Shown in pieces: positions 3,977 through 39,383 of a DNA stretch of 64,000 nucleotides. Position 1 is the first letter of the stretch, and each line of letters opens with the position of its first letter. The notes beneath the pieces were generated by a model, which had not been told where the DNA came from, searched no databases, and saw nothing but the letters and a program-made list of their open reading frames with translations. The DNA is from Williamsoniiplasma luminosum (GTDB lineage: Bacteria > Bacillota_I > Bacilli_A > Mycoplasmatales > Mycoplasmataceae), in contig NZ_CP024963.1 of the NCBI RefSeq assembly GCF_002803985.1, positions 682,001 to 746,000 of the forward strand, written 5' to 3'. The translations under genes and the position numbers were made by a program.

Positions 3977-6757
<2,781 letters not shown>

Positions 6758-36387: not shown

Positions 36388-36424
36388 AATCATTTTGACT
36401 GAAATATTTTCAGTCAAAATGATT
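36388..36424. repeat. Perfect 17-bp inverted repeat
   Basis: AATCATTTTGACTGAAA (36388-36404) and its exact complement (36408-36424) enclose TAT. It lies between the end of yqeH and the DUF896 promoter. The T tract on the minus strand is weak (ATTATCTTTG), so it may be a poor terminator for yqeH or a protein-binding palindrome. Confidence 0.7.
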
Positions 36425-36543: not shown

Positions 36544-37644
36544 TTAGATTAATGCTTTTCTCAAATAAATCATTTTTTCAAAATCATTTTTATATTTTTC
36601 ATTCAGAATGGTGATGGAAAATTCCATCTTTTCAAAATTTTTCAACGATACTCACCCTAATCCTGAAATAACAATATCAATTTCTTTATCTTTGATATTT
36701 TTTAATTTTCAAAGATATGGATTGATTGTTGAATCGATTAATTGGGGCTTTAATAGATTCAAATTCTTTTCTCAATATCGAACAACATTTTCGGTTTTAG
36801 TTCTGTGAATATCAATTTGAGATGAACTATAAAAATGAATATCATTAGTTTTGTTATTTTTAAAATCAAAGTTAATTGAGAAAAAACCACCAACAACAAT
36901 ACTTTGACCACTCTCTAATTGATATGTGTATTGTTTCATTTCTTTTTTGAAATAGAAATATTTCATTTGATCAACACTTGCTAAATTAGAAAGACTATTT
37001 TTTTTATTAATTCCAGGAGTGTCAAAAAAACTAATTTCATCATCTAAAGCAATTTTTATTTCATTTAAAGTTGTATTAAAAAACGGTGAAATGACTGTTT
37101 TAGATGTTAAGTTAGCTTCTCTTAATAAAGCTGTTATCAAACTTGATTTCCCAGCATTGGAAAAACCAATAAAGTATTTATTACCTTTTTCTTTTTTAAC
37201 AAACCCTAACAAATGTTTAATTGAGTCTTGATTAAAACTTGAAACAGTTGTGAATTTTAAATCTTTAATTTCTGAATCTGAAAATGCTTCTTTAACATAA
37301 TTTAAAATTTTAGTTTGTTTAATTGATTTGGGCATTAAATCAATTTTATTCACCAAAACAATAACTCTTTCATTTTGGATCAAGGCTTCTAATTTAATAT
37401 CTCTTGAATTTTTGATGTCTAAAACATCAATGACATAAAAAATTATTTTAGAATCTTTTCTTGAAACAATTTTTTTGATATTTTCAAAAAATGGTTGAGT
37501 TTCAATTTCATAAGAATTATATTCACCATAATTTTTCATTTTAAAACATCTTAAACAATAGTCATTTTCCATTTTTATTGCAAAACCTATTTTTTTTGAA
37601 TCTTGAATTTGTAATTCAACTCCACAGCCAACACATGTTTTCAT
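36544..37644 (-). CDS. yqeH: Circularly permuted GTPase YqeH, ribosome biogenesis
   Basis: GTPase needed for 30S subunit assembly, 366 residues. The N-terminal zinc finger is CVGCGVELQ with YCLRCFKMKNYGEYN. GTPase motifs occur in permuted order: G4 LVNKIDLMPKS, then G1 GFSNAGKSSL, then G3 FFDTPGI. This permutation defines the family. The C-terminal part carries two TGA-encoded Trp. It starts ten bases after the stop of the DEDD-like gene, with GTAGGAG between, and is probably co-transcribed with it. Confidence 0.93.
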
Positions 37645-37654
37645 TTCTATTCTC

Positions 37655-38569
37655 CTACTTTAAATATTTATTATTTTTGCTATAACCAAATTCATATCAA
37701 AAATCTAATAAATATAACATTTTTAAAACATCATTATAGCAATGCACTTTGGCTTTTTTTACATCTTTATTTCATTGTAAAAAATCTAATTGATTAGGTT
37801 CTGGCAAACTTAAAAATTTTAAAGCACTCATTGATAAACCATAAATGTCATCATGATCTTCTAATTTAGAAGAATTAAAAACTTCAACAAAATATTCAAA
37901 AAATTTCTTCAAACTCGGAATTTGAATTGTTTCCATTCCAAGTGAACCTTTTTTTAATTTTGCTGGATCATAGAATTCTTCTCCATTTTCTTTTTTATTA
38001 ACAAATGACATAGATTTACCTAAAATATCATAAACATCCAATGTATTTACAGAATATAGGCCTGTAATTGGATCTTTAATAAATAATGAACTTTTTTTAT
38101 TTTTTAATAGAGCTTTATTTTCATTGATTCAAGAATTGAAAATTTCTTTATCATTGCTTGAACCAGCCAAAACAATCGTTTTGATTTTTTTGGCAATTAA
38201 CATATTCAAAAAACTTTTAACCATATGATTATATTGAGTATAAAAATCATATTTTTTATCATTGTGTTTGCGTTTTATAGTCATCGATTTAATTGCTTGA
38301 TGATTATTTCTGAGACTTATTTCTTTGAAATTTTTTGCAAAGGAATACTGAATGATGTAAACCAACGATTTATTTTTTTTATTATACAATGGATTTTTCA
38401 TGTCAGTTTTATCATGAGAACGATTAAAAAACTCAGTATCTAAGATAATGATTGGCAATTTAATACTATTAAGATTTTTAACTAATTCTTCTTTATCTAA
38501 GAAGAAACCTTGATGATCATTGATTTTAAATTCATTTTCGGTTACTTTTTCAATTTTTTTTAGCTTCAT
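37655..38569 (-). CDS. DEDD-exonuclease-like protein of unknown role
   Basis: Reading TGA as Trp joins two pieces into 304 residues. I do not recognise a named family, but the acidic motifs of DEDD 3'-5' exonucleases can be placed: IIILDTEFFNR (D44, E46), VLAGSSNDKEIFNSW (D140) and, near the end, KVHCYNDVLKMLY (H276, D280). The last motif is H-x3-D, whereas DEDDh enzymes have H-x4-D and DEDDy enzymes Y-x3-D. The gene is tightly joined to yqeH, which would fit RNA processing, but that is inference. Spacing and context are the only further clues. Confidence 0.7.
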
Positions 38570-38627
38570 TTTTCCTCTATCATAATATATATTTTACATT
38601 TTTATTTTTTTAAAGTATTTAAATTTA

Positions 38628-38651: not shown

Positions 38652-39383
38652 ATGAATGAAAAAAAATTACTAAAAGAAGTGATCGACAATTCTATAATCG
38701 AATGATTTAAATTGACTTCAAATCAAGAGTTGAACAAAGTTAGGGAAAATTTACAAGTTATTAAATCCAATTTGCCATTGTTTGAAAAATCAATAGATTT
38801 TGATGGAGAACTGCGCAAAACCGAAACTCAATTTGGAGCAATTCAAACAGTTGCTGACATCAAATTCCTAGTTTCAAAACCAGAAATGAGTTTAGAAACT
38901 ATGATGTTAGGAGATATGTCTAAATTAATGGAAAATATGTTTTCTAACATGTTTAACTCTTTTAATAAAGGTGTTAATTCTGTTTTAAACATCAGAACTG
39001 TTCTTGATGAAAAAATTGGATTAGAAGAGCCCTTTGATCAAATTGATCCAAAAGATATTGAATATTTATGTTTTGTAGAATTGAAAAAAATTCACGAAAA
39101 ATTAAAAGATTTAATTAGCTCTGATCAAAACGATTGTGAAAATGTTTATTCTGAATATGAACAAATGGTAAACAGCACTGACTTGGATTTTATAATGCAA
39201 AAAAATGAAATGATCCAAAGATATTATTTAAAATTAAAACCAAATCATGTTATGGAAAATATGATGATTGGTGGAACTGATGAAATGCAAAAAGAAATTC
39301 TTGCCTTTCAAAATGTTGTAAATATCACTGGTGAAATTGAGTTATTTATTAAGCTGTTCAAGATTATAAAAGCAAAAATATAA
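38652..39383 (+). CDS. Hypothetical helical protein
   Basis: The family is not recognised. ATG 38652 gives 243 residues with one TGA-encoded Trp near residue 18. It is soluble and mainly helical. A Met-rich centre (MLGDMSKLMENMFSNMFNSF) and a Met-rich motif near the end (HVMENMMIGGTDEMQ) stand out. It is divergent from the DEDD-like gene and convergent with ruvB, whose stop is one base away. Its stop lies in the shared terminator. Confidence 0.7.

Follow-up and report, generated by a model that had tools for sequence, protein, structure and literature searches.

A conserved, unnamed family of predicted stand-alone DEDD-type exonucleases encoded beside yqeH in Spiroplasma-group bacteria

The window analysed here is a stretch of 64,000 nucleotides from Williamsoniiplasma luminosum (NZ_CP024963.1, positions 682,001 to 746,000), whose genome of 1.03 Mb needs genetic code 4 for its reading frames. 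Within it lies an unnamed gene, here called NUC, which stays open over its whole length under that code, with three TGA codons read as tryptophan (Table 1). A sequence-only reading of the locus had placed its end ten bases before yqeH, and indeed 10 bp separate it from the yqeH start at 37644 on the same strand. The yqeH product narrowly misses the cut-off of TIGR03597 (297.1 bits against 297.4) and lies above that of Pfam YqeH-like_C. The 17-pair hairpin behind yqeH suggests a two-gene transcript, and we infer that NUC and yqeH share one. Three terminator-like sites were found between 36000 and 39500, two of them being this hairpin counted once per strand, against 0.6 expected from shuffled sequence; promoter-like sites in the stretch (21 found, 27 expected) are not above chance. 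On the other side of NUC, the divergent gene P243 runs on the opposite strand and separates NUC from ruvB. Its product has no Pfam match and no PDB fold match at E <= 0.001.

Table 1. Features of the NUC locus, in positions of the window
Feature	Positions	Strand	Basis
NUC, predicted stand-alone DEDD-type 3'-5' exonuclease, 304 aa	37655..38569	-	ORF, conservation, predicted model, fold matches
Codons D44-T-E46, motif I, strand beta-1	38432..38440	-	D, E 29/29; model strand 40-49
Codon D140, motif II, near start of helix alpha-B	38150..38152	-	D 28/29, E 1/29
Codon D178, D-I/V-Y, end of strand beta-5	38036..38038	-	29/29; 22/22 rows including remote relatives
Codons H276-C-Y-N-D280, motif III H-x3-D, in helix alpha-C 260-295	37730..37744	-	H, C, D 29/29
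yqeH, GTPase of 30S assembly	36544..37644	-	TIGR03597 E 1.8e-88; Pfam YqeH-like_C
17-pair stem-loop between yqeH and next gene, terminator-like on both strands	36388..36424	.	Terminator scan
Promoter-like site upstream of NUC, weak	38584..38613	-	9/12 matches
P243, divergent neighbour, predicted all-helical	38652..39383	+	Model pLDDT 85.1

A search with the single NUC protein gave matches in 29 of 60 genomes, its own included. The 37 genomes of its own family account for all of these matches; the 23 from other families gave none. A 24-row profile run across the order reached 51 of 298 genomes, namely 44 of the same family plus weaker matches in five f5 and two f7 genomes. A 20-row profile run across the class reached 26 of 395, namely 24 carriers of the same family together with G028 (E 1.6e-7) and G628; in G628 the match covers only profile positions 3-48 inside a larger protein that is DUF2779-like by eye. 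The closest named relative found is that of Williamsoniiplasma lucivorax, with 75% identity across the entire protein. Comparison with a 76%-identical orthologue (L002) gives a dN of 0.159 and a dS of 1.27 (dN/dS about 0.13), which indicates purifying selection on NUC.

The family has no name in the collections searched. Pfam gave no family match for 24 members, and neither PF13482 nor PF11074 is among the 20 families listed for them at E up to 10, in a search where the HMMER filters drop most weak matches. Individual members gave weak matches, to eRF1_2 and Rad4 among others, which were discarded as noise, being inconsistent between members and, for the window protein, below cut-off. NCBIfam holds no model near its cut-off for the window protein, and PDB sequences gave no meaningful match to phmmer with NUC or to hmmsearch with two profiles. 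A viral or mobile origin was set aside, as a scan of viral contigs contained no relative and a PHROGs search with the window protein gave no match at E up to 1. No literature on the family was found among open-licence papers, for some queries among the best matches only (15 of 472; 12 of 1,638; 8 of 54; 8 of 29). The terms sought did not lead to a NUC orthologue in a transposon study of M. florum (PMC5893858), and the main text of PMC6609329 contains neither 'exonuclease' nor 'YqeH'. NUC represents a real, conserved, unnamed and uncharacterised family of predicted exonucleases of a known kind in Spiroplasma-group bacteria.

The acidic motifs D44/E46, D140 and H276-x3-D280, pointed out from the sequence as fitting a DEDD nuclease, are where they had been placed and in DEDD order, and they are retained in orthologues. 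D44, E46, D178, H276, C277 and D280 are invariant in all 29 sequences, and D140 is Asp in 28 and Glu in one (L028). The 24-row alignment has 25 invariant columns for the 304 positions, and four of these hold D44, E46, H276 and D280. The probability that a random draw of positions would find all four invariant is 3.6e-5, so these residues are more than a chance pattern. D178, within a D-I/V-Y motif, is an additional invariant residue that was absent from the sequence-only list.

The AlphaFold model of NUC, built with eight sequences, is confident (pLDDT 89.2, pTM 0.89). It comprises strands 40-49 (with D44 and E46), 68-78 and 94-97, helix 109-126, strand 131-134, helix 138-150 (with D140 close to the start), strand 176-178 (whose last residue is D178), a region of mixed structure, and the long helix 260-295, on which H276 and D280 lie one turn apart. 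The order of elements by DSSP in this model, b1-b2-b3-aA-b4-aB-b5-aC with the motifs on b1, aB and aC, is the core order of DEDD exonucleases (PMC11194089). VIA-align, a second look at the top 1000 of Foldseek, lists 50 entries, which are B-family polymerases (Z 10.8-12.8, rmsd 3.3-4.7, 168-201 residues aligned), and together with the core order this bears out the RNase H-like core that the sequence-only reading had made the test of its proposal. Foldseek itself gave 46 PDB matches at E <= 0.001 (best 3.2e-5), which are B-family polymerase entries as well, with TMq of only 0.27-0.40 and rmsd of 8-22. NUC is 9-15% identical to the listed polymerases. Among predicted viral proteins, NUC is matched best in fold by a YprB RNase H-like protein (TMq 0.49). 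MrfB is absent among the PDB fold matches listed by Foldseek and VIA-align, which has no bearing either way. As modelled, NUC has a DEDD exonuclease core and resembles the exonucleases of B-family polymerases.

The last motif is what sets NUC apart from the better-known branches of the superfamily. In classical DEDDh enzymes, the His stands five residues before the last Asp (H-x4-D). RNase T, DnaQ and oligoribonuclease, which belong to this type, have the superfamily core in common with NUC, but the H-x3-D spacing in 29/29 sequences led us to reject NUC as one of them. The NUC profile shows no similarity to a set of seven DnaQ-like sequences, but this comparison has little power, since DUF2779 was not similar to that set either. 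With the DEDDy enzymes RNase D and NrnC (Y-x3-D), NUC shares the last-motif spacing and the long last helix, whereas His replaces their Tyr in 29/29. The exonuclease of B-family polymerases carries, as NUC does, D-x-E, the motif II (Exo II) Asp and then D-x-Y. These proofreading domains, the best fold matches of NUC, likewise have their last Asp in a long helix; contrary to NUC, they have Tyr four residues before it, and NUC has no polymerase domain. The description of the last motif as intermediate between the DEDDh and DEDDy patterns was thus accurate.

This H-x3-D arrangement is that of Bacillus subtilis MrfB (YprB; PF13482 / COG3359), a DNA-repair exonuclease in which it is formed by H258 and D262 (PMC11194089). 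Both proteins have D-x-E, the motif II Asp, a His four residues before the last Asp and a long last helix, and MrfB is described as similar to B-family polymerase exonucleases, as is the NUC model (PMC11194089). The DEDDh His typically lies in a loop, and MrfB, with its long last helix, is structurally nearer to DEDDy enzymes, yet uses His (PMC11194089). The two differ in that PF13482 is missing from the families listed for NUC, and in that only 9 residues follow alpha-C, which leaves NUC without the C-terminal TPR domain of MrfB. Activity on ssDNA is significantly lower in the MrfB mutants H258A, D107A and E109A, and some of it is kept in D262A and D172A; of the mutants tested on dsDNA, all three (D107A, D172A and D262A) show no activity (PMC11194089). 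The residual ssDNA activity makes the precedent not uniform. Both PF13482 and DUF2779 are counted among presumed 3'-5' exonucleases (PMC3985635). Nine PF13482 loci were inspected, and most look PolC/DnaQ-like by eye.

The best explanation of these likenesses, given the predicted model, is that NUC belongs to the structural branch formed by the proofreading domains of B-family polymerases and YprB/MrfB. With its catalytic residues kept in 29 sequences, its modelled core, its polymerase and viral YprB fold matches and the MrfB precedent, NUC is very probably a DEDD exonuclease in fold and chemistry, stand-alone, two-metal and 3'-5', and this part of the earlier proposal of an RNA exonuclease in ribosome maturation stands. 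Against it count the low Foldseek TMq values, the activity left in MrfB D262A and D172A, and the substitutions seen in L028 and in remote relatives.

Two-metal hydrolysis is established for the DEDD superfamily. By analogy with MrfB, metal A would be held by D44, E46 and D280 and metal B by D44 and D140, and H276, which precedes D280 by one helical turn, would activate the nucleophilic water. Metal binding, catalysis and the 3'-5' direction of NUC are thus predicted properties.

The remote relatives show how far these positions vary. Those of f5 (L068, L069) have D-F-E, a motif II Glu, D-x-Y-D and H-N-Q-N-D, so that H-x3-D is kept. Those of g7 (L186 in G028, L190 in G035) and one of f7 (L066) have Lys at the H276 position, and in motif II the aligned f5 and g7 relatives, two of each, have Glu. 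The g7 genes (L186:1498-2256 and L190:3146-3925), which combine Lys for the catalytic His with the motif II Glu, lie immediately upstream of ruvA-ruvB; a different ORF occupies that place in G009 and G017. In f7, the L066 gene (4099-4974) ends its motifs in K-C-K-N-D, and the L067 copy (4037-4780) is broken. Beside these f7 genes stands a 478-aa protein that resembles an IS transposase; the one beside the L066 relative has no Pfam match.

Once these remote relatives are included, a similarity to DUF2779 (PF11074) emerges. A 22-row profile matches 20 DUF2779 domains with E 1.2e-4 (probability 54.6, score 38.8), colinear over about 220 columns and with the motifs in register, whereas the best of 40 column-shuffled controls scores 25.6. 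Seven neighbourhood families, compared with the 24- and 20-row profiles, gave E values of 0.08-0.86. All 20 DUF2779 proteins inspected have Y-C-x-x-D, a motif II Glu and ORFs of 532-746 aa, against H-C-x-x-D, Asp in 28/29 and 304 aa in NUC, the Cys after the H/Y position being common to both. It is tempting to see in NUC a divergent DUF2779 relative whose DEDDy Tyr became His, a descent compatible with either an RNA or a DNA substrate, and the presumed 3'-5' exonuclease activity of DUF2779 (PMC3985635) agrees with it. However, the signal needs the remote relatives (without them, a score of 22.2 for the 24-row alignment stands against a shuffled maximum of 21.1), PF11074 is not among the Pfam families listed for the members, and DUF2779 is a separate gene in 60/60 genomes of the order sample, so that we put this descent forward only tentatively. 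A DUF2779 protein is encoded at G000:C1:772787-773209 (L120), and this presumed exonuclease domain is kept throughout the order's sample.

What NUC acts on is the weakest step of our interpretation, and the evidence comes from the gene neighbourhood. It was surveyed in 40 loci from 44 same-family carriers, on stretches that reach only about 6-7 kb, and because the genomes are related, the counts overstate independence. In 28 of the 40 loci the gene that follows NUC, at no more than 150 bp, is yqeG or yqeH, and in 35 one of the two is found within 7 kb. A YqeH match is present in all 29 NUC carriers, and G012 has neither NUC nor yqeH, with ruvAB and (by eye) yqeG remaining. Together with the hairpin behind yqeH and the position of the f5 relatives behind tuf, these observations point to RNA as the substrate and to maturation or clean-up of the small subunit alongside YqeH, to which we give slightly less than even confidence. 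A ribosome role is plausible but unproven; the gene context behind it is fair, but ruvB too is often near. That YqeH-type GTPases act on the small subunit is supported by PMC11260468, in passages that name no exonuclease partner. YqeH is reported from all Spiroplasma-group species (PMC4014445), and its function is given as perhaps dispensable in the minimal genome of M. mycoides (PMC4993169).

The association with YqeH is not without exceptions. G058 has a NUC relative and no YqeH match, and 16 of the 45 genomes with a YqeH match lack NUC in the single-protein search; among these 16, G028 and G035 have the ruvAB-linked relative, and G040 and G053 carry an f5 relative, their YqeH matches being short and confined to the GTPase domain. 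The sequence-only reading had also looked to Mollicutes lacking RNase R, and a role there is not supported: RNase R is above cut-off in 53/60 genomes, including all 29 NUC carriers (a tally of 59/60 includes short S1-like matches), so NUC is no replacement for it and that candidate was rejected.

A second translation-gene context is seen in f5, where the relative directly follows tuf in L068 (3073-3879) and follows tuf plus a nitroreductase gene in L069 (3188-4075), L070 and L071. In L072, fusA, tuf and the nitroreductase gene were tagged and a text filter left the relative untagged; fusA in the f5 loci was tagged by a short motif only.

Alternatively, NUC could be a DNA-repair exonuclease of the MrfB kind, linked to RuvAB rather than to YqeH, which would trim the 3' ends of DNA during recombination or excision repair. 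The best functional precedent does act on DNA (PMC11194089), and the best fold matches are exonuclease domains of DNA polymerases. In the neighbourhood, ruvB lies upstream of NUC on the same strand in 25/40 loci and, beyond the surveyed stretches, 6.5-12 kb upstream in G013, G014, G026 and G036, and the G028 and G035 relatives directly precede ruvA-ruvB. Contrary to this, G003 has NUC with only a weak ruvB match (E 3.8e-9), and in G004 and the g4 genomes ruvB is far off or on another contig (broken in G031), yet NUC overlaps yqeH there. P243, encoded on the opposite strand, intervenes between NUC and ruvB in the window; it is a divergent neighbour of NUC in 31/40 loci and was not detected in the other 9. 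The tuf-linked f5 relatives also speak against a repair function. Counting the four further ruvB neighbours took an RNA role from evenly balanced to just below and raised DNA repair a little, to a level at which we still regard it as doubtful. As NUC stays against yqeH in the g4 genomes and G004 with ruvB far away, the ribosome side is slightly better supported than the ruvAB side. A role other than RNA processing or DNA repair is unlikely.

It is very improbable that NUC is an RNase H-like protein devoid of catalytic activity, serving only to bind nucleic acid or ribosomes, even though the g7 and f7 relatives have Lys for H276 and the inactive POLA1 exonuclease domain (PMC11194089) is among the best fold matches, since the catalytic positions are invariant in 29 sequences bar one D-to-E change, which is not expected of a dead enzyme.

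Taking the small-subunit reading one step further, one may picture an exonuclease-GTPase pair of the Spiroplasma group, in which NUC, with its MrfB-type H-x3-D motif, would be made together with YqeH and would trim or destroy the 3' ends of pre-16S rRNA on particles marked by YqeH. In this specific form the proposal is speculative, and we consider it rather unlikely to be right in full.

Mollicutes serve as the reference for minimal cells, and a main gap in minimal genomes lies in the genes whose function is unknown. The NUC family gains here a predicted fold, a predicted active site with an experimental precedent in MrfB, and possible partners in YqeH, RuvAB and P243. It adds a lineage with a conserved H-x3-D variant, and the relatives in which this His is replaced by Lys offer a natural test of the role of that residue. 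If true, the exonuclease-YqeH pair would represent a nuclease of small-subunit maturation or quality control not described in the open-licence papers found.
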